The notes under the pieces: model-generated
Told to the model about the DNA's origin: nothing
Seen by the model: only the letters and a program-made list of their open reading frames with translations
The model's database searches: none
In this document: one piece after another, positions 111-52,526 of the stretch
Numbering within the stretch: the first letter of the stretch is position 1
Layout: every line of letters starts with the position of its first letter
Position numbers and translations under genes: made by a program
Source of the DNA: Prorocentrum cordatum
Lineage: Eukaryota > Sar > Dinophyceae > Prorocentrales > Prorocentraceae
Direction of reading: 5' to 3'
DNA: 64,000 nt
NCBI GenBank assembly: GCA_963575745.1
Contig: CAUYUJ010001314.1
Span: 535,592-599,591, forward strand

Positions 111-268
111 GAACTCACCCCCCCGACTCAAGTGGCCAGCGCCCGCCGCGCGCGCGCACGAGGACACAGACGCTCGCCCGAGCAGTCCTCGTGCTTCTCT
201 GTTTTTCCATTCTCCCATAGCATTCTATTACGCGTATCCCTCCCGTCACTCCTCCCCCCCCTGCTGCG

Positions 269-1351
269 ATGGCCAAGTCTGACGCTCGTGGCAGCTCGGA
301 TGACAGCCGTGAGCAGAGGCGACACAAGAAGGAGAAGAAGGAAAAGAAACATAGTCGGTCACGTTCGGACGATCGGGCTCGTGGTCGCCACAGCCGCCGC
401 CACGCCGACTCCGAGGATGAAGCCCCTACTGCGGCTCCTGCATGGCTGGCAGATCTGGTTAAGGGCATCGAGACCACCAATTTCAGAATCTCAGAGCTGG
501 ATGGCACGCTGAAGCATGAACTCACCGAGGTGAACAACAAGCTGGAGGCGCATGGACACGCAATCGACGTGCTGGCGAACCGCACCTTGAAGCTTGAGCA
601 GCAGGCCCAGGGCTCACTTGATCGGGCCATGGCAGCTGCCGTCGATGAGAAAGTGAAGGAGCAGATTGCTAACTTAGACTCTGCCATTACGGAGCTGAAA
701 AACTCACGGCCATCGCCGAGATCGACTACTGGCAGCGCTTCTTCCAGTGCCCCACTCTCTTCTGCTTCTGGTCCACAGTCGAGAACTGTGAAGACACGGA
801 GGTGGATTGGTACTTTCCCACGTTCGCTCACCTGTGCTCAAAGACAGCAGCACTGGGACTCGGTGGTCTTCCCCAGGCTGACGCAGGAGCTCAAAGACGA
901 CGCGAAGATCACGATCTCGCGGGTCGGCAAGAGTTACTCGGTCGACTTCAGTGAGGAGACCATGGCGGAGAACTTCAGCACCCTCATCAGTGGAATGGAC
1001 ATCTCCTGGCGTGACCCTCGGTCCCAGCAGCTACATGAGATTCGGGCACGTGGAGATCTGCCAATGGACGTACGGGCTCGTCAGCGGGCCGCATCGCTGG
1101 TATGGCAAGGTACTCTTGAACTGCTACGAGGTGGAGGTCATGACATGGCTGGATATCGTCTTGGAACAAATGGATTCCAAGGATTGGTACACTTCAGTTC
1201 AGCAGAAGAAGTATATGAGCTCTTTTGGATCCGTGGATGTCCGCAGTCTGGCTACACATACGACCCTGTGATCGACAACTTCAAGCACTGGAATGTGGAC
1301 CCGGATGCTGTACACCACATGCTAGAACGCATCAGAAAGTCCAAGCACTAG
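269..1351 (+). CDS. LINE A ORF1 protein (putative RNA-binding)
   Basis: 360 residues from an ATG at 269, the first ATG of this frame after the leader. The N-terminus (residues 1-60) is a charged, Lys/Arg/Ser-rich tail (KKEKKEKKHSRSRSDD), suited to nucleic-acid binding. Residues ~65-150 are helical and likely coiled coil (DLVKGIETTNFRISELDGTLKHE region). Residues ~170-360 look like a globular, RRM-type C-terminal domain, although no RNP motif is clear. The layout basic tail, coiled coil, globular domain is that of LINE ORF1 proteins, which coat the element RNA. Function is inferred from position upstream of EN-RT. The reading frame has no breaks. Confidence 0.75.
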   Translation: MAKSDARGSSDDSREQRRHKKEKKEKKHSRSRSDDRARGRHSRRHADSEDEAPTAAPAWLADLVKGIETTNFRISELDGTLKHELTEVNNKLEAHGHAIDVLANRTLKLEQQAQGSLDRAMAAAVDEKVKEQIANLDSAITELKNSRPSPRSTTGSASSSAPLSSASGPQSRTVKTRRWIGTFPRSLTCAQRQQHWDSVVFPRLTQELKDDAKITISRVGKSYSVDFSEETMAENFSTLISGMDISWRDPRSQQLHEIRARGDLPMDVRARQRAASLVWQGTLELLRGGGHDMAGYRLGTNGFQGLVHFSSAEEVYELFWIRGCPQSGYTYDPVIDNFKHWNVDPDAVHHMLERIRKSKH

Positions 1352-1459
1352 GAAGTTCGGCTACGGGAACATGGCTCATCTTGTGAGGTCAGGCTGGGGC
1401 CTGACTGCCGGCCTGAGGGGAGAGGTGCATCTGCTCCGCACCTCTCAGCTGGCCCGCGG

Positions 1460-2980
1460 GTGCAAGAACAGTGCCCTACGCGTAGGGCCGAGCGTTCCAG
1501 TTTTTCCGTTTGTAAGAATTCACGCATTGAATCGTTGAATGCTAGTGCTTCGAACACCACCAGAGGCCCAGGCCCAGGAGCTGTACAGGGATCTCCCCCC
1601 TCTCCTCCCTCCTCTTCCTCGTCTTCGTCGTCGTCCTCATCCAGTGGCTATCCTGAGGTTCCGTTCCAGGCGTCTACTTGTCCGTATTCGGCGTGTACCT
1701 GGAACTCCCATACGCTATGTGGAAGCATATGGGCCTCACATGCTACTCAGTGTCGTAAGCTATCGTCTTTGAAGTATCTACTACGCCGTCATGAGATTAT
1801 ACTGATTCAAGAGTGCCACGGTTCTGAGGGTGATCTTTGGGAACTTCGAAAGCGATTTCCGTCCTTTAAAATCTTCGGCTCTTTCCTGGACTCTGAGGCT
1901 GCTGGTGGTGTGCTCATTTTTATCCATGAACGGCTTGCTCAGCACTTCTCTACTTTCTCTACATCTGCCCCGATCCCTGGTCGAGTACTTACTGTTCGGT
2001 GTGCTGGGCAGTCTGGCACGCTTGTACTCACCTCTGTCCATCTCGACCCCTGCCGGTCACAGTCTAACTTTAAGGAGGCTATTCGTATTCTGGGTACTTC
2101 GCGTCCAAACTATTCAGAGGCCACTTGGATACTGGGAGGTGACTTCAACTTTCTTGAGGAGGGGGAGGGCCGTCTGAGGGTTCGCGATGGTCATGTACAG
2201 CTCACGGCGGGTCATCTAGCTAGGTACTTCCACTCCCAGTGCCCGAACTTAGCTGAGATTCAACAAGTGGAGATGACTCACAAGACCGTCCAGGATGATG
2301 CAGTGGTGTCTGTTGGTCGCTTGGACAGGATCCTCTTGAGTACTCCCAGCATGGACCTCATTGATTTTAAACCTGTTTCTGGAGTTGTATGGAATATATT
2401 TTCAGATAAGATTCCAAGCGACCATACGGCAGTGTTTGTGCGCCTTTCGGCACCTGAATACGCTACGTCGACCCCGTCCATTCCGAAATGGGTCGCTTGC
2501 AGTCCGCAGTACTGCGAGGAGCTCCGAAGTTTGAATGCAGAGCTAGACGTTGATCCTGACCCTGTGCAGCGTGTCCTGGACCTTAAGGATATGATGCATG
2601 AGGCCTCCCGTAGAGTTCGGTTTCGGGCTGAAATCAAGGGCCCTGGCTCCCCTGAAGAAAAGTGTTCCTGGATGCTTGCCCTCAATGGGGCCCACCGGGC
2701 TGGCAGGCAGGATATAGCGTCAAGGGCATGTAGGTCGTATCCCAGGTTGCTGGACTTCTACGACCCTACTGTTATGCAGTGGCATGACTTACGAAGGTTT
2801 CACGCCGATTTCTCTGCTCTTACTCGTGCTGAGCTGCAGCGCCAGCAATCTGCGATAGCTCTTGATCCTGATTTACATCCATCATCGAAGGAGTCCAAAC
2901 TTACGAGGCTTCGAGAGCTATCAGCGGCATGGAAGCCAAGATACAGGCAGATCTACCTGCACTCTGTAGCAGATAAATAA
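1460..2980 (+). CDS. LINE A ORF2, N-terminal part: APE-type endonuclease
   Basis: Exonuclease-endonuclease-phosphatase fold that nicks target DNA to prime reverse transcription. Catalytic landmarks are all present: WNSH near residue 80, QECH (E118), GGDFN (residues 226-230), the RLDRI signature (D289) and the terminal SDH triad (320-322). A Ser/Pro-rich low-complexity stretch precedes the domain (residues ~45-62). The open frame begins at a GTG at 1460 and has no early ATG, so the true start is unknown; re-initiation or a shorter start is possible. The frame ends at TAA 2978-2980, where the RT continues one frame over. Removing a single T in the 'AAATAAG' at this junction joins the two frames, so ORF2 was almost certainly one protein. 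Confidence 0.85.
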   Translation: MQEQCPTRRAERSSFSVCKNSRIESLNASASNTTRGPGPGAVQGSPPSPPSSSSSSSSSSSSGYPEVPFQASTCPYSACTWNSHTLCGSIWASHATQCRKLSSLKYLLRRHEIILIQECHGSEGDLWELRKRFPSFKIFGSFLDSEAAGGVLIFIHERLAQHFSTFSTSAPIPGRVLTVRCAGQSGTLVLTSVHLDPCRSQSNFKEAIRILGTSRPNYSEATWILGGDFNFLEEGEGRLRVRDGHVQLTAGHLARYFHSQCPNLAEIQQVEMTHKTVQDDAVVSVGRLDRILLSTPSMDLIDFKPVSGVVWNIFSDKIPSDHTAVFVRLSAPEYATSTPSIPKWVACSPQYCEELRSLNAELDVDPDPVQRVLDLKDMMHEASRRVRFRAEIKGPGSPEEKCSWMLALNGAHRAGRQDIASRACRSYPRLLDFYDPTVMQWHDLRRFHADFSALTRAELQRQQSAIALDPDLHPSSKESKLTRLRELSAAWKPRYRQIYLHSVADK

Positions 2981-2987
2981 GCATGGA

Positions 2988-5246
2988 GTGCCTTATCAGT
3001 CACCCGATGATTCAGCCGCCGCACTTGCCGCACACTGGGGAGAGATTGGGAGGAACTATGAGGTTTCTGAGGAGAGATTCTTGACCCTCGAGCCGTACAT
3101 CCAGAAGGTTTTTGGTGATGAGGTTTGGAAGCTATCGGAGGAGGAGTTTCATGAGATGGTCAAGAAATCGAAAGATTCGGCACCTGGCCTTGATGGTGCG
3201 CCGTACTCTGCCTGGCGTGCCGGAGGCCCAGAGATTTCTAGCTCGCTGTATCGCTTGTATGAGCACTTGCTGGATTTTGGTTCGCTCGGCCCTGGTTTCA
3301 ATCATGGTGTCTCTGCCTTTTTGCCCAAGGGCAAAGAGGAGGCTGGCACGCGAGGGCAGACTCGCATGGCAGACTGCACACGGCCGCTCACTCTCAGTAA
3401 TACCGACAACAAACTCATTGCTTCCGCGATCTGCCGCCCTCTTACCCGTCTTGCTGTCTCAGTGTGCTCTGGGGTTCAAAAAGGTTTTATTCCTGGTCGC
3501 CAAGGGTTAGATCATGTTATCGATTTGGATTCTCAGATCATGATTACAAACGACATCGAGGGGAACTTTAGGAGTGGTGCCTGCCTCTTCGACGTGAAGG
3601 CTGCCTTCCCGAGTCTGCACAGAAAGTGGATGTTTTGGGTGCTTGCTCGAATGGGCATCCCTGAAAATATTCAACACGCTTTGAGACAGCTGTATGATGA
3701 TTGCAGAATTTTCATCCATTTTCGTGGGTCCACTAAACACTGCTATATCATGGGCCGTGGTATTAAGCAGGGTTGCCCATTGAGCGGAGTATTATTCGCA
3801 CTCTGTATAGATCCAGTGCATCGTCTTCTGTTCGCGCGAGCTGGCCCAAGTTACGACCCGCAGTACTCCCTGTATGGCTATGCTGACGATCTCGCAGTGT
3901 TCTGTCAGGATATATTTCTGTCCCTGCCGCAGATCATCCGCACTCTGATGGAATGTGCCCCAGGCACTGGGCTCATAATTCACCCTGCCAAAACCCAGAT
4001 TGTTATTCCTCGTCAGTTCGACCTCTGCTGGATCCGCCTAGAATTCAAGTGGCACGGTCTGAATATTAAGCCGTTTCGAATCTCCACGTGTGGTAAATAC
4101 CTTGGGCTGATTGTAGGGCTGGAGGCCCCTGATAGGTCCTGGCAGGCGCCCATAGCCGCTCTCAGGACCCGCTGCTCCCACCTCAACCAGCTCGCCTTCT
4201 CTTTCAGCCAGAACATTCTCATGTATAACACCTTCTGCTTCCCGGTCGTGGGACATGTTTGTCAGGTTCACCCTCCTCCCAAAGCTGCTCTTCGTGCGGA
4301 GTTCCAGTGTCTCCAGGGCCTTGTACGAGGGCCTTATAACGCTTTCCCGTGCACGCTGATTCGCCAGCTGAAAATGTTCGGTTTCGAGATGGAGCCTCGG
4401 AACCTTGCCCTGCACTGCAAGGCCGCTGCCTATCGGGTCTGTCACCGTAGTGAAGCGTACCGGAGGGTGGGGCATCAGATCACGAGCATTCTTGAGGACG
4501 AGGAAGGAGACTATGTGGTAGCATATCAATATCAGAAACTGTATCGCACATCTATCTTCAAATACCTGAATGAGGTGTGGAGTGAACTGACGGCTATTCC
4601 TGGGGTTCCTCTTGAGCCTGTCCCCCAGCTTCAAGGCAAAACGTATCGTGCTCTCGAACGTTCCAGCCCGTTGCCGTCGGTTATCGAGGTTCTCAATAGA
4701 AGACTGTCGAAGTGGTGCAGGGAATATGGCCCCTCAGTAGCAGAGTTGACCCTTATTCGTTTGAATGTGCTGGCTAAAAAGATTCCTCCCCATTTCATTG
4801 CGACCTTGCTGAAGACCTACTTGAACGCCTGGAACACCACAGCTCGGTATCGACTCGGCACGATTCCTTGTAGACTGGGCTGTGACTTGCATGATGGGGA
4901 CAATCTCATGCACTACTTATGTTGCCCTCACTTTCAACAAGTTGTGACTGGGCTCCTCCCCCTTCTTCCCTCCTCCTGGGCCTCTGGAGATCCAGCTGGT
5001 TTCATCATTGGCGTTCCTAGGTATCTGTCGTTCTCTGAGTTGCTGAGCATTGCCATTGCCATAGATATCACTTACAGTACATTTAATCACGTGCGTGTTC
5101 ATGGTAGATGTAGTCATGCTATGCTCTCCTCCCTCGCCCGTGCGCGCGCCCGCGCAATTGCTGCGGCGTCGCCGACGGTACGGCGAGCGCTCCAAGGGCA
5201 TCATGGCCCGTGGGGTGGGGAAGAGGAGGAGGAGCAGCAGCTTTGA
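2988..5246 (+). CDS. LINE A ORF2, C-terminal part: reverse transcriptase with CCHC knuckle
   Basis: Reverse transcriptase for target-primed reverse transcription. Landmarks, counted from 2988: the fingers motif with FLPKGKEE near residue 105; motif A FDVKAAF with catalytic D202; motif B IKQGCPLSG around Q261; motif C YADD at 298-301. The post-RT region carries a cysteine/histidine knuckle, C628-x3-C632-x9-H642-x3-C646, typical of LINE C-termini. The first codon is a GTG only because the preceding frameshift cuts the polyprotein; the true start lies in the endonuclease. The last residues (EEEEEQQL) are encoded by a GAG microsatellite, so the natural C-terminus may have been altered. All RT catalytic residues are intact. 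Confidence 0.92.
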   Translation: MPYQSPDDSAAALAAHWGEIGRNYEVSEERFLTLEPYIQKVFGDEVWKLSEEEFHEMVKKSKDSAPGLDGAPYSAWRAGGPEISSSLYRLYEHLLDFGSLGPGFNHGVSAFLPKGKEEAGTRGQTRMADCTRPLTLSNTDNKLIASAICRPLTRLAVSVCSGVQKGFIPGRQGLDHVIDLDSQIMITNDIEGNFRSGACLFDVKAAFPSLHRKWMFWVLARMGIPENIQHALRQLYDDCRIFIHFRGSTKHCYIMGRGIKQGCPLSGVLFALCIDPVHRLLFARAGPSYDPQYSLYGYADDLAVFCQDIFLSLPQIIRTLMECAPGTGLIIHPAKTQIVIPRQFDLCWIRLEFKWHGLNIKPFRISTCGKYLGLIVGLEAPDRSWQAPIAALRTRCSHLNQLAFSFSQNILMYNTFCFPVVGHVCQVHPPPKAALRAEFQCLQGLVRGPYNAFPCTLIRQLKMFGFEMEPRNLALHCKAAAYRVCHRSEAYRRVGHQITSILEDEEGDYVVAYQYQKLYRTSIFKYLNEVWSELTAIPGVPLEPVPQLQGKTYRALERSSPLPSVIEVLNRRLSKWCREYGPSVAELTLIRLNVLAKKIPPHFIATLLKTYLNAWNTTARYRLGTIPCRLGCDLHDGDNLMHYLCCPHFQQVVTGLLPLLPSSWASGDPAGFIIGVPRYLSFSELLSIAIAIDITYSTFNHVRVHGRCSHAMLSSLARARARAIAAASPTVRRALQGHHGPWGGEEEEEQQL

Positions 5247-7150: not shown

Positions 7151-8800
7151 GTGGCTAGTCCCTGGCCGTCGCTGGTGGCCGGTTGTCGTTGGTGTCCGTC
7201 GTCGGCGGCTCGTGGTCGTCGGCGGTGGTAGTCGCTGGTCGCGGTACTCTGCGTGGCCGTTGTTGGCTGCCTATTGCGGTGCGCGTGCTCGTAAAAGTCG
7301 CTGCCGCAGCTGTCGCAGCTGTGGTGGGAGCCGGCGTGGCGTGCTTGCTCGTCGTGAATGCCGCGGCGGTTGTCGTGGCGGTGGTGGTGGCCATCGTGGT
7401 GTGCGTGCACCTGGGAGTCGCTGTCGTCACTGTCGTGGATGCCGTGGTGGCCGCTGTGGTGTGCTTGCTCGTCGGGGTCGCTGTCGTGGCTGTCGTGGTG
7501 GCCGCCGCCGTGCGCGTGCTCGTAAGAGTCGTTGTCGTGGCAGCGGGAGCTGTCTTGGTATCTCCCTGGGTGCGCTTGCTGTGGCTGCCATCGGCGACGT
7601 GGCTGTAGCAGTGGTCGCCGTGGTGTGCTTGCTCTTGTGGAGTCGCTGTCGCGGCTGGCGTGGCTGTCGTGAAGGCCCGCCTTAGCGTGCTTGCTCGTGT
7701 GAAGCGCTGTCGGTCGTGGTTGTCGTAGCTTTGGGCCGCCGTGGTGTGCGTGCTCGTGAGAGTCGCTGCCGTCTCGGTCGTGGCTGTACGGCCGTTGTTT
7801 GTGGAGCTCGTCGTGGAGCTGCTGGAGCAGGGCGCATTGGTCATTGAAGAGTTGCTGGGGTCGGTCGTAGTGTTCGCTGTACAGCTGCTGCTGTCGGTCA
7901 CTGCTCGCTGTGTTGCTGTCGTTGTGCTGTTCGCGGTAGGCGTTGCGGTGGTAGTTGTTCGTTTCTGCCGCACTGTGGTTGGGTTGTTGATTGGTGCTCG
8001 GCGCGTGTGTTGGTGGACGCGGCGGCTACCAAAGGTCTGGTAGCGAGACGGGTCCAGGAAGTAGGCAAGTTCCGTGCACTCGGTTATCGTTGTGTTGCTT
8101 GTGCGGCTGAAGGCCAGGCTTGAGTTGAGTATAATGATATGTTTGGTGGCCAGATGTGAACGCATGATGTGTGTACGGCGGTCACGTTGTCTTCTTTTTG
8201 CCAAGCTGCTCCGTTGCTGATTATGGAGCTGCTGGAGTCGGTCGCCGTGCTTGCTGTGGCATTGATGGGGGTGATCGTGGTGCTAGACGTCGTCCAGCTG
8301 AGGTCGGTACTGTAAGTGCTCACGTTCAGAGCTACCAACATTGTTGGTAGCTCTGAACGTCGTAGTGCAGAGGTTGGTGCAGAGGTCGGTGCTGAGGTCG
8401 GTGTTGGACGTCGTAGTGTTGGAAGCGTTGGTGGTGCTGGTCGTCGTACTGGTGAGGTCGACACTGGACGTAAGGTCGGTGCTGGACGTCGTAGTGTTGG
8501 AAGTGTTCGTTGTGATGGTATTGGTAGTGCTGGAAGTGCTGGTGATGCTGGTTGTGCTGGTATTACTGCGGGTGCTGCTCGTGCCATCCGTAGCATTGGT
8601 CGTGCCAGTCATCGTATTGGTCGCACACTCCACGCTGGTAGTACTCGTCTCGCTGTCCATGCCATCTATGTTGATAGTTCGGATCTTCCTAATTTATGCC
8701 GTCGCGGGGTCGCTCAAGACGATGGCGACTCAAGGTCGGCACACGAACAATTTGCTCCATCGGCTGCTTCTCACGAGTATATAGGAGATGTAGGAGGTAA
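7151..8800. repeat. Degenerate minisatellite built on 'GTCGTGGCTGTCGTGG'
   Basis: Recurring words include GTCGCTGTCGTGG, GTGTGCGTGCTCGT and GGTCGGTGCTGGACGTCGTA. Copies such as 7320-7350, 7440-7480, 7500-7540 and 7740-7790 share a longer motif, so a higher-order unit may exist. The opposite strand gives a Thr/Ala-rich open frame (7155-8204) that is low complexity. Confidence 0.75.
8322..8360. repeat. Perfect 39-nt palindrome
   Basis: Two 19-nt arms (8322-8340 and 8342-8360) are exact reverse complements around a single T at 8341. It sits inside the GTCGTGG minisatellite and would form a very stable hairpin. Confidence 0.9.
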
Positions 8801-13255: not shown

Positions 13256-13277
13256 TCCGTAGCCATTTGGACTCGAG
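13256..13277 (+). other. DinoSL-like relic before the channel gene
   Basis: Reads TCCGTAGCCATTT then GGACTCGAG. Aligned without gaps to the 22-nt DinoSL it differs at three positions (14, 16 and 20), so 19 of 22 match, including the first 13 in a row. It lies 39 nt before the ATG of the channel gene on the same strand. This suggests the gene was re-inserted from a trans-spliced mRNA. It is a single diverged copy, so chance cannot be fully excluded. Confidence 0.65.
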
Positions 13278-13316: not shown

Positions 13317-15575
13317 ATGTCGCCAGAAACCGCCCGCCATCGCGGGGTGCCACCCATGGTGGCGGCAGTGCCCGAGCGGCCAGGCCCGGACCTGGACGCG
13401 AGCTGGGACGACGAGCTGTTCTTGGGCGCGAGCTGGAACGACGACACCCAGACCTCGAGGACGAGCGCTCGCCGCGAGGCTGCCGGGCCCCTGCCCGCGC
13501 GCTCGCCGGGGGAGGGCACGCCGAAGACGCCCCCGCCCACGGGATCGCCCATGCAGTCACCCAGGGACAAGACGGGGGCCAACAAGATCTCGCCCCGCGG
13601 CCCCCGAACGCCTCCGCAGCCGCCGGCGACACTGCCCCCGAGCCCCGAGCCGCCCAGCACGAGCCCGAGCGGCGCGGACCTGGAGGGCATACGCCTCGTG
13701 GTCCGGGAGGAGGTGCAGGCGAGCCAGAGGCAGGCCGCCCTGCAGCTGGCGGAGCTGCTGCACGCCCTGGAGCGGCGGCTGCGCAGCGACCCCGCGCCAG
13801 AGGGCGCAGGGCTGGCGGGGTCCGTCGGCCAGCCCGCGCAGCGGGCCGCCGCGCCTCCGCGGCCGGGGCCTGAGCCGCCGGCGCCCTGGGGACAGCGCCC
13901 CAATTTCTCGCCCGCGGCAGAAGAAGGCTGGCAGAAGTTGTGGATGGAGGTACTCTCCGAATGGCCCGGTCGCCTCTCGAAATGCTCTAGCGAGACCCAG
14001 GTCATTGCTGGCCTTGTGCGCAAGAGTCTTGTGCAGAGGATCGCGGAGATGCGTGAAGCGTTCGAGGACAAGTACGGTTCTCTGCCGGAGACGATGGGCG
14101 CGTTCGCTAGGGCGATTCAGAGTCGTTGGTTCGAGCTCGCGAGCGGGCTCATCATCATCCTGAACACCGTGTACGCAGTTACTGACGCCAACCTCACCAT
14201 GAATCTGGCTATCGAGGGCCATGTTGACTCGGAATTCCATGTCGCTGAGGCTGTGTTCTTCGGATGGTTCACCATAGAGTTGATATTGAAGTTAATGGCA
14301 CAAGGGAAGTACTTCTTCACCGCCAAACCAGACGTTATGTGGAACTACTTTGACACACTCCTGTGGGCTCTGACTTTCTTGCTCGCAGTGTTCAGCGTCT
14401 CCGCGAACGTGAATGTGTCCTTCTTACGTGTGCTTCGGTGCCTCAAGCTCGTCAAGGTCATCCAATTACTTCAATTTCTTGAGTTCACGCAGGAATTGAA
14501 AATAATGATGGAGTCCACGATCCAGTCTGCACTGACTCTCTTGTGGTGCTTGTTGATGGTCGGCTTCTTCGTGCTGCTCTTCGCGCTCTTCTTTGTGCAG
14601 TCGGCGTCGGCCGTGCTCGCGAGCACAGACGACAGCCTAACCGATGCCCAGCGGGATGCCATCATAGCATACTTCGGAAGCGTGCACATCGCAGCTCGGT
14701 CGCTGGTGATGGCAACCACTGGAGGCTTCGACTGGGAGATCCTGCACGGGACACTGGTCCCTGTGGGAGCGCACGCCGTGTGGACGATTTATTTCTTCAT
14801 CCTCTTCTTTCAGATAGCCATCTGGAGATGGTGAAGAGGTACACCCTATCTCTGGAGGTGCTACACCAGTGCACCAAGAGTGACGTCCAAGAGCGGATGG
14901 GTGACCATTGGCCAGGATGCGTCTTTAGCAAACAGAGCCCGTATGATGAGAGCTGGTTGCGAGCTTGCGATCATGATCTTATCACGTGCCCCTGATGAGC
15001 GACTTCGTCCTATGGATGGCTAGTCTTTGAATGGAGGTGCTTCTCCCGAGATAGGGTGTACCTCTTCACCATCTTCTTCCATCTGGAATGTTGTGACATC
15101 CATATTCGTGGACAAGGCGTCACAACTTGCAAAGCCTAGTGCCGAGGCAGCCTTGCAGCATAAGCAGAGGATGGAACACAGAGACCGCCAAGCTCTCAGG
15201 AGGATGATCGAGAAGTGCGATATCAATAAGGATGGCCGAACAAGCCGGGAAGAGTTCATACACATGATCTCCCGTTCGGATTTCCAATGTTTCTTGCAGG
15301 AAAGGGGCATCGAGATTAAGGAGGCGGTGAGCTTCTTCAGCATGGTCGCTGCCGCCAACGGCACCGACGAGGTAGATTTTGACGCGCTGGCTTTTTCCTG
15401 CTTGCGCAGCCAGGGTTCGGCCACAGGCATCGACCTCAACACTTTGCGGCACGAGACCAGGATCCATCTCAGGGAGATCACCTCCTCCCTCGCAGATCTG
15501 CGCTGCATCGTGGACTGCCTCGCCAGGGCCTTTGCCGGCGCCGCAGTGGAGGCCGGGCAAGTCCAGGGGCAATAG
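13317..15575 (+). CDS. Single-domain voltage-gated cation channel with EF-hand (split by an insertion)
   Basis: Ion_trans-type membrane channel; 665 residues if the 261-bp insertion is removed. Residues 1-260 are Pro/Ser/Arg-rich with a short helix (LVVREEVQASQRQAALQLAE). S1 starts near 268 (SGLIIILNTVYAV); S2 contains FFGWFTIELILKL; S3 lies near 340-362. S4 holds R371, R374, K377 and K380 at every third residue. S5 is near 404-428, the pore has TTGGFDWE (467-474), and S6 starts near 485. After S6 comes a canonical EF-hand loop DINKDGRTSREE (548-559) and a weaker second one, implying Ca2+ control. Ion selectivity cannot be read. The frame is intron-free except for the insertion at 14818-15087, which adds a stop just after IWRW. 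A DinoSL-like relic lies 39 nt upstream. The gene works only if the insertion is spliced out; otherwise it is a pseudogene lacking part of S6 and the EF-hands. Confidence 0.85.
14818..15087. mobile_element. Small inverted-repeat element inserted in S6; introner candidate
   Basis: The 9-nt word CCATCTGGA occurs at 14818-14826 and 15079-15087, flanking the insert as a target duplication. Inside it, 14826-14852 and 15048-15074 are perfect 27-nt inverted repeats containing GATGGTGAAGAGGTACACCC. Net insertion is 261 bp. Deleting the insert with one duplication copy rejoins IAIW to NVVTSIF in frame across S6. The 3' end has no AG, and no GT/GC-AG pair gives exact excision. It is therefore either a non-autonomous transposon that broke the gene, or an unconventional intron whose ends are paired by the inverted repeats. 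Confidence 0.85.
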
Positions 15576-21641: not shown

Positions 21642-23338
21642 TTTGTTTTTTTTCTTTCCACGTTGTCTTTCGCATCCCTTCCTCCGCTCCCCTTTTTGTT
21701 CTCTGTCCCGTTGTCCTCCGTCCTCCTTGCCGTCCTCTCTCTCTCGCTTGCCACTTCTCCCCATGGGGGCTGCGGGCGCCTTTTTCGTCGCCTCCGCGCA
21801 GGGGAGACCAACGCTTGAAGGGGCGCCATCCTCCACACAGGAAGACCAAGGCTTGCAGGGACCTTCCCCCAGACACGCCAGTGCCCCCACACCCTATGAT
21901 TTAATATGGATTTCTCTCACACAGGAGGAGGAGGGGGAGGAGGATCAGGGGGGAGACAAATATGGAGGGGGGACAGCGAAAGAGAGAAAGAGATAGAGAA
22001 AGGGAAATGAGAGAGAGAGAGAGAGGGGGAGACTCGAGGGAGCAGCGATCCCTGTGACACCACAATGTTTGCGACGCCTGGGGCCCCCAAACTCTGTTAT
22101 GTCATTTAGATGTTTGGGATTTCCGGGGTCAGAATCCCAGAGACCCTATGATTTCATTTGGATGTTTTTCTGATTTTTGTGATTTTCTGCCCTCAAACAA
22201 AATCAGCTCTGGAGCCCCTCAGGGGTCAGAATCATAAAAATCACAATGAAGTCACAGGTTTCGCGATGCCAAGGTGCTCCAAACCTTATGATTTCAGGTG
22301 GATGTTTGGGGTTTCTGGGATGAGAATCCCAGAAACCTTATGATTTCATTGGGATGTGTCTGATTTTTTGAATTTTCTGCCTTCCAGCAAAATCAGCTCA
22401 GGAGCCCTTCAGGGGTCAGAATCCCAAACGTCCCAATGAATTCGCAGGTTTCGCGATGTCAGGGTGCCCCAAACCTTATAATTTCACTATGATTTTTGGG
22501 ATTTCTGAGATGCGAATCCCAGAAACCTTATGATTTCATTCGGATTTTTGAGATTTTTGCGATTTTCTGCCCTCCAGTACAATCAGCTCAGAAGCCCCTC
22601 AGGGGTCGGAATCCCAAAAATCCAAATGACTTCGCATGTTTCGCGATGTCAGGGTGCCCCAAACCCTATGATGTCATTTGGGTTTTTGTATTTTCTGGGA
22701 TGAGAATCCCAGAAACCTTATGATTGCATGTGGATGTTTGGTACTTTTGGGATTTGGGAGGGTCTGGGCCCACTTGTGCTGATTTTTGCTGGAAGGCAGC
22801 AAAATCACAAAAGTTCTGAAAATCCAAATGAAATCATAAGGTTTCTGGGATTCTCATCCCAGAAATCCCAAAAATCACAATGAAATCGTAGGCCTTGGGG
22901 CACCCTGACATCGCGAAACCTGTGAATTCATTTGGATTTTTGGGATTCTGACCCCCGAAGGGCTCCTGAGCTGATTTTGCTGGAGGGCAGAAAATTCAAA
23001 AAATCAGAAACATCCAAATGAAATCATAAGGTTGCTGGGATTCTCATCCCAGAAACCCCAAACATCCACCTGAAATCATAAGGTTTGGGGCACCCTGGCA
23101 TCGCGAAGCCTGTGTATTGGTTTGGATTTTTATGCTTCTGACCCCTGAGGGGCTCCGGAGCTGATTTTGCTGGAGGGCAGAAAATCATAAAAATCCCAAA
23201 ACATCCAAATGAAATCGTAAGGTTTCTGGGATTCTCACCCCGGAAATCAGAAACATCCAAATGAAATCATAGGGTTTGGGGCCCCCAGGCGTCGCAAACA
23301 TTGTGGTGTCACAGGGATCGCTGCTCCCTCGAGTCTCG

Positions 23339-23377
<39 letters not shown>

Positions 23378-23715
23378 GCTGTCCCCCCTCCATATTTGTC
23401 TCCCCCCTGATCCTCCTCCCCCTCCTCCTCCTGTGTGAGAGAGAAATCCATATTAAATCATAGGGTGTGGGGGCACTGGCGTGTCTGGGGGAAGGTCCCT
23501 GCAAGCCTTGGTCTTCCTGTGTGGAGGATGGCGCCCCTTCAAGCGTTGGTCTCCCCTGCGCGGAGGCGACGAAAAAGGCGCCCGCAGCCCCCATGGGGAG
23601 AAGTGGCAAGCGAGAGAGAGAGGACGGCAAGGAGGACGGAGGACAACGGGACAGAGAACAAAAAGGGGAGCGGAGGAAGGGATGCGAAAGACAACGTGGA
23701 AAGAACAAAGACGAA
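21642..23715. repeat. ~2-kb palindrome with ~1-kb arms
   Basis: Left arm about 21642-22740 and right arm about 22795-23715 are reverse complements with small differences. Matched pairs include 21880-21892 with 23465-23477, and the Gly/Arg-rich frame in one arm recurs on the other strand. Within each arm is a ~189-bp tandem unit (three copies, for example at 22150, 22341 and 22529) with CAAAATCAGCTC, GCCCCTCAGGGGTC, GGTTTCGCGATG and TGGGATGAGAATCCCAGA. A ~50-bp unpaired spacer (22742-22794) separates the arms. Confidence 0.9.
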
Positions 23716-27351: not shown

Positions 27352-27835
27352 TCCCCAATCAGAGCTTGCCTCTCTAGGGGTCCTAGCGGATTCATATGGT
27401 TAGGTGAGGTGGGGCGCCGATTTGGTGGCCGGTGGCCGGGTGCCCGGGTGCCCGGGTGCCCGTGGGTGCCCGGTGCCCCAGGATTTCGGTGGCTGGTGCC
27501 CGGGTGCCCAGGTGCCCGGGTGCCCGTGGGTGCCCGGGTGCTCGGGGGTGCCCGGAGGTGCCTGGGGGTGCCCGGGTACCCTATAGCCATATAGCCCTAT
27601 AGCCTTATAGCCCAATAGCCCAATAGCCCAATAGCCCAATAGCCTAATAGCCCATCTAGCCCATATAGCCTTATAGCCCAATAGCCCTATAGCCCTAAAG
27701 CCCTAGAGCCCCAGAGCCCTATAGCTCTAGAGCCCTATAGTACTATAGCCCTATAGCTCTATAGCCCTATAGCCCTATAGCCCTATAGTACTATAGCCCC
27801 TATAGCCCAATAGCCCAATAGCCCTACCTATACGA
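27352..27835. repeat. Octamer composite element, locus 2
   Basis: Starts TCCCCAATCAGAGCTTGCC at the pentamer repeat border, then GGGTGCCC octamers (27430-27570) and TATAGCCC octamers (27575-27830). Confidence 0.9.
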
Positions 27836-52504: not shown

Positions 52505-52526
52505 TCCGTAGTCAGTTTGGCTCAAC
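52505..52526 (+). other. DinoSL-like relic
   Basis: Reads TCCGTAGTCAGTTTGGCTCA then AC; against the 22-nt DinoSL it differs at positions 8, 11 and 22, so 19 of 22 match. A short frame opens at ATG 52587 (MAAAALWPVRLV) but no gene is recognised before the satellite border. Confidence 0.5.

Follow-up and report, generated by a model that had tools for sequence, protein, structure and literature searches.

A probable 5′-truncated retrotransposon copy behind the inverted ends of an insertion in a dinoflagellate channel gene

Introduction

What kind of sequence interrupts a channel gene with perfect inverted ends, stands between two short direct repeats and leaves an intact reading frame when it is removed? 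The question is raised by a stretch of 64,000 nt from the dinoflagellate Prorocentrum cordatum (contig CAUYUJ010001314.1, positions 535,592 to 599,591), called the window here; coordinates of the insert and of its host gene are window positions. The original prediction, made from the letters alone, took the insert for a recent arrival and saw in it either a transposon with terminal inverted repeats (TIR) or an unconventional intron of the introner kind. Our analysis argues for a third origin. The insert is very probably a 5′-truncated copy, about 215 nt long, of a low-copy non-long-terminal-repeat (non-LTR) retrotransposon of about 6.8 kb, which would have landed at a preferred target, the codons of the channel's S6 helix.

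Results

The geometry first described held when it was recomputed. The 9-bp direct repeat CCATCTGGA stands on both sides at a spacing of 261 nt and occurs nowhere else in the window on either strand, the inverted arms are perfect over 27 nt and extend imperfectly to 43 nt (86%), and omitting 261 nt at any of 10 equivalent offsets gives one identical, uninterrupted frame of 665 amino acids (aa) with S6 restored. Three relatives without the insert (P0001, P0002 and P0003, two of them from P. cordatum) are uninterrupted across the junction and read IAIWNVVTS or IAVWNVVTS (IA[IV]WNVVTS), as expected for an insertion. If the insert is retained, an in-frame TGA closes the open reading frame (ORF, 13317-14834) within S6. 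The ends of the insert are not symmetric, since four additional bases, TCTT, lie between the right arm and its direct repeat. Among the 60 listed of the window's 115 inverted pairs, that of the insert is the only one in which arms above 20 nt are flanked by a 9-bp repeat; such a repeat also flanks a self-palindrome of 14 nt at 27735. An Rfam scan of the window gave nothing at gathering score, and the TIR pattern had no match in viral contigs and seven in a collection of genome contigs, all of them in bacterial records.

A DNA search of genome G000 (4.13 Gb, 21,875 contigs; copy counts are lower bounds) with 14865-15079 returned at least 16 copies including that of the window, the other 15 at 79–92% identity. 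The longest run upstream into a non-LTR retrotransposon of about 6.8 kb, and the long copies have an ORF that by eye ends ...TILSRAPDERLRPLDG before its stop. Copies have the common 3′ end ...CACCTCTTCACCATCTTCTTC; of the 14 with a 5′ boundary in view, the shortest measures 134 nt and the longest 6.9 kb, with ragged 5′ ends and a fixed 3′ end. A reverse transcriptase (RT) is found in copy L024 (584-2095, minus strand; RVT_1, E 2.2e-7) and is absent from the truncated window copy. The full-length copies L032 and L030 have target-site duplications (TSDs) that match at 17/17 and 16/17 positions, and the L030 site has two empty relatives, L049 and L050. RT, a common 3′ end with variable 5′ truncation, and TSDs together with an empty site at some copies are the properties by which a long interspersed nuclear element (LINE) is recognised, and it is with these that the insert's family replaces the TIR transposon and the introner of the original prediction.

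L030 and L032 begin with ACTCAAG, which resembles the truncated spliced-leader remnant CTCAAG given in PMC12014239. The 15 aligned copies fold into a 3′ stem-loop of 21 pairs (−19.0 kcal/mol) with weak covariation: one pair changes from GC to AU in four copies, another is changed on both sides in one, and the overall term is slightly unfavourable (+0.36). The element is probably of the apurinic/apyrimidinic (AP) endonuclease type, judging by the order of motifs seen by eye in the decayed frames of L029, L030 and L032. RT had no match among PDB sequences or in NCBIfam, and only two homologous proteins were found, one in an ENA record (68% over half of the RT) and one in P. cordatum (43%). ORF1 of L030 (P0005), without a match in Pfam, holds a stretch IDNEGKGDCFWIA that by eye we would liken to the motif of an OTU-type protease.

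The left arm is private to the window copy as far as the copies are in view. It is present in 0 of the 13 others whose 5′ boundary can be seen; in the remaining two of the 15 the boundary is out of view, at a contig start (L019) or beside N (L033/L012). Reverse-complemented, the element's own 3′ end gives the sequence of this arm, which stops, inverted, in the loop of the 3′ hairpin. Both arms read GAGATAG instead of GAGCTAG, with a base that is absent from the 14 other aligned copies, and therefore both were copied from one source; the right arm has additional private changes. The original prediction had treated further genomic copies of the 27-nt ends as informative: the copies that exist are those of the LINE family, and no other with a visible 5′ end shares the left arm.

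We can picture how such an arm might arise. The element would have landed by target-primed reverse transcription at the S6 codons N-V-V-T-S-I-F, the family's preferred target, where a bottom-strand nick would start first-strand synthesis and yield the sense fragment. Either the resected top strand would then have been primed on the RNA's 3′ end, or the first cDNA would have folded back, so that the same 3′ end was copied again; this second copying would produce the 38-nt inverted left arm and with it the false appearance of TIR plus TSD. The two full-length copies lead one to expect 17 bp, of which the 9-bp duplication in the window would be the first 9. We infer the double-priming or fold-back step from the arms themselves. 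Twin-primed or inverted LINE copies are known from work on mammalian L1, and like the window copy they are 5′-truncated, with the inverted segment at the 5′ side within one TSD. The window copy differs in that its inverted piece duplicates the extreme 3′ end, which gives it the look of a TIR element.

The 3′ flanks of the family share a motif with the period of codons. It reads AAC-ATn-GTn-nCn-Gnn-nTn-TT, like the S6 codons N-I-V-T-G-V-F, and its commonest residues as codons are N-[IVM]-[VI]-[TP]-[GA]-[VI]-F. The consensus AACATNGTNACNGGNNTNTT, itself drawn from the flanks that it scored, matches at 8–13 of 14 fixed positions in 16/16 flanks with a mean of 10.8, against a mean of 6.3 and a highest mean of 7.4 in 1000 control draws from the same loci; hence the test was repeated without a consensus. 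The motif lies at +7 from the element end in 12 copies, at +9 in one and at +10 in three. Unsupervised alignment of 15 flanks gave the same offsets at 17.0 bits against 8.6 (sd 0.3, maximum 9.3) in 60 shuffled sets, a comparison weakened by the 40 restarts allowed for the observed flanks against 8 for the shuffled ones. Third codon positions are weak in the motif (permutation p 0.002). Copy L012, whose flank is near-identical to that of L011, was omitted from this set and from the 14-flank set described below. The family's independent insertions thus share a codon-periodic target motif, and they show a target preference, not strict site specificity. Over 19 nt, the element's 3′ end is 84% like the S6 codons that lie upstream of the target; the idea that it imitates S6 was considered and set aside, as the likeness may be due to chance.

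S6 is the best match to this motif in most channel loci that were ranked. A matrix of 14 flanks, from which the window copy and L012 were excluded (its flank offsets had been set with the window copy included, which detracts from the test), placed the S6 codons first of 7,544–8,474 positions in 9 of 11 channel loci with intact S6, and 6th and 16th in the others; these loci are paralogs, so they are not independent. No permuted matrix placed any S6 first (0/150 with columns permuted, 0/100 with bases permuted), and S6 still came first in 8/11 loci when the five most S6-like flanks were dropped. The 11 were taken from 20 fetched loci; those omitted are L053 and L056 (= window gene), L054 and L069 (no S6 aligned), L055 (S6 absent), L063 (duplicate of L062), and L064, L067 and L068 (broken at S6).

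A second, related LINE stands at the same S6 codons elsewhere. In L064, the channel gene breaks directly after AACATCG of S6 and continues in frame into this LINE, whose protein matches ORF1 of the window family at 36% over 246 aa (E 6e-52). Over the 616 nt before the break, L064 and its intact paralog L059 are 98.7% identical. When the genome was searched with ORF1 and 53 of 12,535 first-look candidates were scored, the L064 LINE was matched as well (C13345:159065-161545, open frame of 1686 aa). Three more copies of the second LINE have a common 5′ end, preceded in L087 by AACGTC and in the other two by AAACGGATC and a GTA repeat. The repeat that surrounds L087 (gcgaacgtcgcc...) is by eye of the kind that holds the family copy L015/L031. 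As an observation in its own right, the channel gene and ORF1 of the related LINE form an in-frame fusion at L064 (G000:C13345:157370-161545) that is open over 1686 aa; a protein search with the second LINE for channel–LINE fusions returned a single protein, P0008 of P. cordatum, in which Pfam shows no channel domain.

Other channel genes are also broken at these codons. A comparison of L068 (G000:C13559), a further channel gene, with L057 shows an insert of 205 nt at these S6 codons that differs in sequence from the window's; it has inverted ends of 16 nt perfect (about 31 nt imperfect) and an AACATC direct repeat, and the channel frame resumes beyond it. This insert has short matches to the LINE at most, and it could be a true introner bounded by inverted repeats (IR) or a miniature inverted-repeat transposable element (MITE). 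More broadly, of the 85 channel matches, 20 (counting that of the window gene) break off at P0001 residues 340-361. For the 15 channel genes L072-L086, whose match ends near S6, 9 stop by eye within N-I-V-T-G-I and go on in different sequence; the sequence after the break begins alike in L076 and L079, and in another form in L077 and L086. S6 is possibly a hotspot of introns or insertions in these genes, and the breaks may be ordinary introns, so they are not counted as support for the target.

The host gene itself appears to be a retrocopy, without introns and preceded by a relict spliced leader. Its Ion_trans match lies in the frame 13317-14831, and an EF-hand after the insert falls below the Pfam cut-off. 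The relict leader, matched against the letters of the dinoflagellate spliced leader (DinoSL), lies 40 nt upstream of the ATG; 200 windows simulated with a Markov model gave no match better than 17, a score that 3 of them reached. P. minimum is an older name of P. cordatum. According to PMC12014239, CCATTTTGGCTCAAG is a remnant motif of the spliced leader, leader remnants mark retrogenes, and P. minimum has 477 retrogenes. The relative P0001 matches contig C3002 (genome G000) in three pieces at 90–99%, spread over 8 kb with gaps, one of more than 6 kb between the match ending at residue 336 and that starting at 351; a reading of small extra residues in P0001 as mis-spliced introners was set aside in view of this gap. 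A relict leader upstream and a relative split by gaps are both found, and the host gene is therefore read as a retrocopy; a retrocopy origin would also explain why the gene, as the original prediction had noticed, has no intron in the remainder of its open 665-codon frame. The same prediction had offered two outcomes, a disabled gene or an unconventional intron. The former fares better; this gene copy was probably disabled by the stop in S6 and not rescued by splicing. The features of the locus are collected in Table 1.

Table 1. Features of the interrupted channel gene and its insert (window positions)
Feature	Position	Strand	Support or remark
Relict dinoflagellate spliced leader, putative 5′ mark of a retrogene	13257..13277	+	18/21
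5′ part of the channel gene (Ion_trans) as far as S6	13317..14826	+	PF00520, E 1.7e-13
Left target-site duplication CCATCTGGA	14818..14826	+	reads as first 9 of the ~17 bp at two full-length copies
Left "TIR" arm, antisense copy of the element's own 3′ end	14826..14863	-	27 nt perfect at 14826-14852; ends in the 3′ hairpin loop
In-frame TGA on retention of the insert	14832..14834	+	
Sense 3′-terminal ~215 nt of the probable non-LTR retrotransposon, 5′-truncated	14865..15079	+	79–92% to the other 15 copies
C-terminal remnant of the retrotransposon's RT-bearing ORF, TAG at its end	14865..15023	+	frame ...RLRPLDG and stop, by eye across copies
Element 3′ stem-loop	15014..15074	+	fold of 15-copy alignment
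Right inverted arm, the element's normal 3′ end	15048..15074	+	
Right target-site duplication CCATCTGGA	15079..15087	+	
Target motif AATGTTGTGACATCCATATTC, S6 codons N V V T S I F	15087..15107	+	
Channel gene, 3′ part: rest of S6 and EF-hand region	15088..15575	+	EF-hand match under Pfam cut-off

Discussion

The appearance that suggested an intron is genuine: direct repeats, inverted ends and exact in-frame restoration coincide at the insert, the remainder of the 665-codon frame is open, and the insert, folded as RNA, gives a strong hairpin (z = −7.7 against 200 shuffles). An introner, or unconventional TIR-paired intron of the Amoebophrya type, would join the exons through its paired ends and be removed from RNA without GT/GC/GA-AG borders. 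PMC7789003 reports such non-canonical introns in Amoebophrya, with IR of 8–20 nt and direct repeats (DR) of 3–5 nt over the boundaries, spliced in RNA; the IR of 27 nt and DR of 9 nt in the window exceed these sizes. For P. cordatum, PMC10666404 describes introns enriched in IR-bounded elements, introners screened by inverted ends plus a short direct repeat inside annotated introns, and GT, GC or GA donors; PMC9860276 treats the introners of dinoflagellates and PMC11453091 also deals with introners. No such donor allows exact removal here. The 10 equivalent junctions offer no GT/GC/GA-AG or AT-AC borders (0/10), which bears out the earlier statement that no GT/GC/GA-AG pair permits exact excision, and all 40 listed of 41 in-frame pairs of these types nearby alter the S6 region. 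Splicing at such borders with exact removal was rejected on these grounds, as the canonical solutions near the junction change S6, for example by +9 or +11 aa. An open frame is equally expected after a recent insertion, and the left arm, being private and derived from the LINE 3′ end, was therefore not inherited as an intron end. On this sequence evidence the insert is most likely not an intron, and we consider an introner improbable.

Introners of Amoebophrya and other dinoflagellates do resemble the window copy, as they too interrupt coding sequence and are bounded by inverted ends and direct repeats (PMC7789003, PMC9860276 and PMC10666404). They differ from it in that the other copies of the window family in view are without inverted ends, in the missing GT/GC/GA-AG pair for exact removal, and in the LINE origin. 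A MITE or other TIR DNA transposon would likewise account for the 27-nt ends and the 9-bp duplication, and a TSD of that length would suggest a Mutator- or Merlin-like mover. Such a transposon is very improbable for a family with an RT, a fixed 3′ end and ragged 5′ ends, with 17-bp TSDs at two full-length copies, and with the left end found in none of the 13 related copies that show their 5′ end.

If the insert is a LINE copy, why did it land at S6? We lean toward the view that a LINE clade of P. cordatum has a target recognition shaped by the channel multigene family, reading the first and second codon positions of S6 N-[IV]-V-T-[GS]-[VI]-F and tolerating wobble; S6 may then be a target that the clade evolved to use. 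A serious rival grants the LINE and makes the S6 match incidental: the enzyme would prefer a DNA motif that happens to be S6-like, and insertions in channels would be chance events in an organism with many channel genes. It gains from the 15 of 16 family copies that lie outside recognised channel genes and from targets that are repeats (L031 and L024 in the family; L087 and L088). It is set back by the wobble at third positions, by S6 being the top site in 9/11 channel loci under a matrix built without the window insertion, and by the related second LINE, which occupies these codons in a different channel gene. We regard it as possible, on balance doubtful.

Several observations weigh against the reading that we prefer, both as to the element and as to its target. 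A clear TSD is not seen in L018, L022, L025, L027 and L029, repeats obscure it in L016, L024 and L031, and the window TSD has 9 bp, not 17 (L019 and L033, whose 5′ side is outside the contig piece or N, are not part of the TSD table). A Pfam scan of element pieces found no endonuclease match. Only 1 of the 16 family copies is within a recognised channel gene, so that the family does not place most of its insertions in one multicopy target gene; the targets of L023, L030 and L032 are unlike channels, and tblastn with P0001-P0003 on the other fetched flanks gave no credible channel (best E 0.06 over 43 aa). As for the second LINE, 2 of its 4 5′ junctions are AACATC or AACGTC, and the others are AAACGGATC and the GTA repeat.

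RNA genes and repeats are known targets of site-specific LINEs. R1, Tx1, R2, NeSL and Utopia are like the window family in having an RT, a fixed 3′ end and a preferred target motif; the window family stands apart in that its motif corresponds to codons in a family of protein-coding genes and leaves third positions free. Homing endonucleases tolerate synonymous change in a conserved coding target, so that conserved codons are recognised and wobble is free, as we propose for the window LINE; the window case concerns a retrotransposon, and the proposal is drawn from insertion sites alone. In some animals Utopia inserts more loosely at look-alike sites, as the window family does (PMC4640811). A codon word of a channel gene is an unusual kind of preferred LINE target, and no report of a LINE with a protein-coding target was found among literature titles and the opening parts of abstracts.

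Were the channel-shaped recognition true, the transposon would have adapted to what stays constant in the protein, its amino acids, and not to constant DNA; the large family of channel genes would then serve as a multicopy harbour, as ribosomal DNA does for R1 and R2. Such a target would also be a source of turnover in the dinoflagellate channel family, with S6 a recurrent hotspot of insertion and perhaps also of intron gain. A caution follows for introner screens: inverted ends with a short direct repeat, the kind of signature used in P. cordatum (PMC10666404), could be produced by one faulty LINE insertion.

The window holds further traces of retroposition. At 65-100, a second relict comes after a full spliced leader, and a short way downstream lie LINE-like ORFs (221-5243) with Exo_endo_phos in 1352-2977 and RVT_1 in 2970-5243; the mRNA of this LINE seems to have been trans-spliced and retroposed more than once. 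No similarity was found between this LINE and the RT of the insert's family. A further 18/21 spliced-leader match at 52506-52526 may mark a retrogene downstream, and positions 21652-23705 form a large palindrome, in which perfect arms of 267, 75, 55 and 54 nt are nested.
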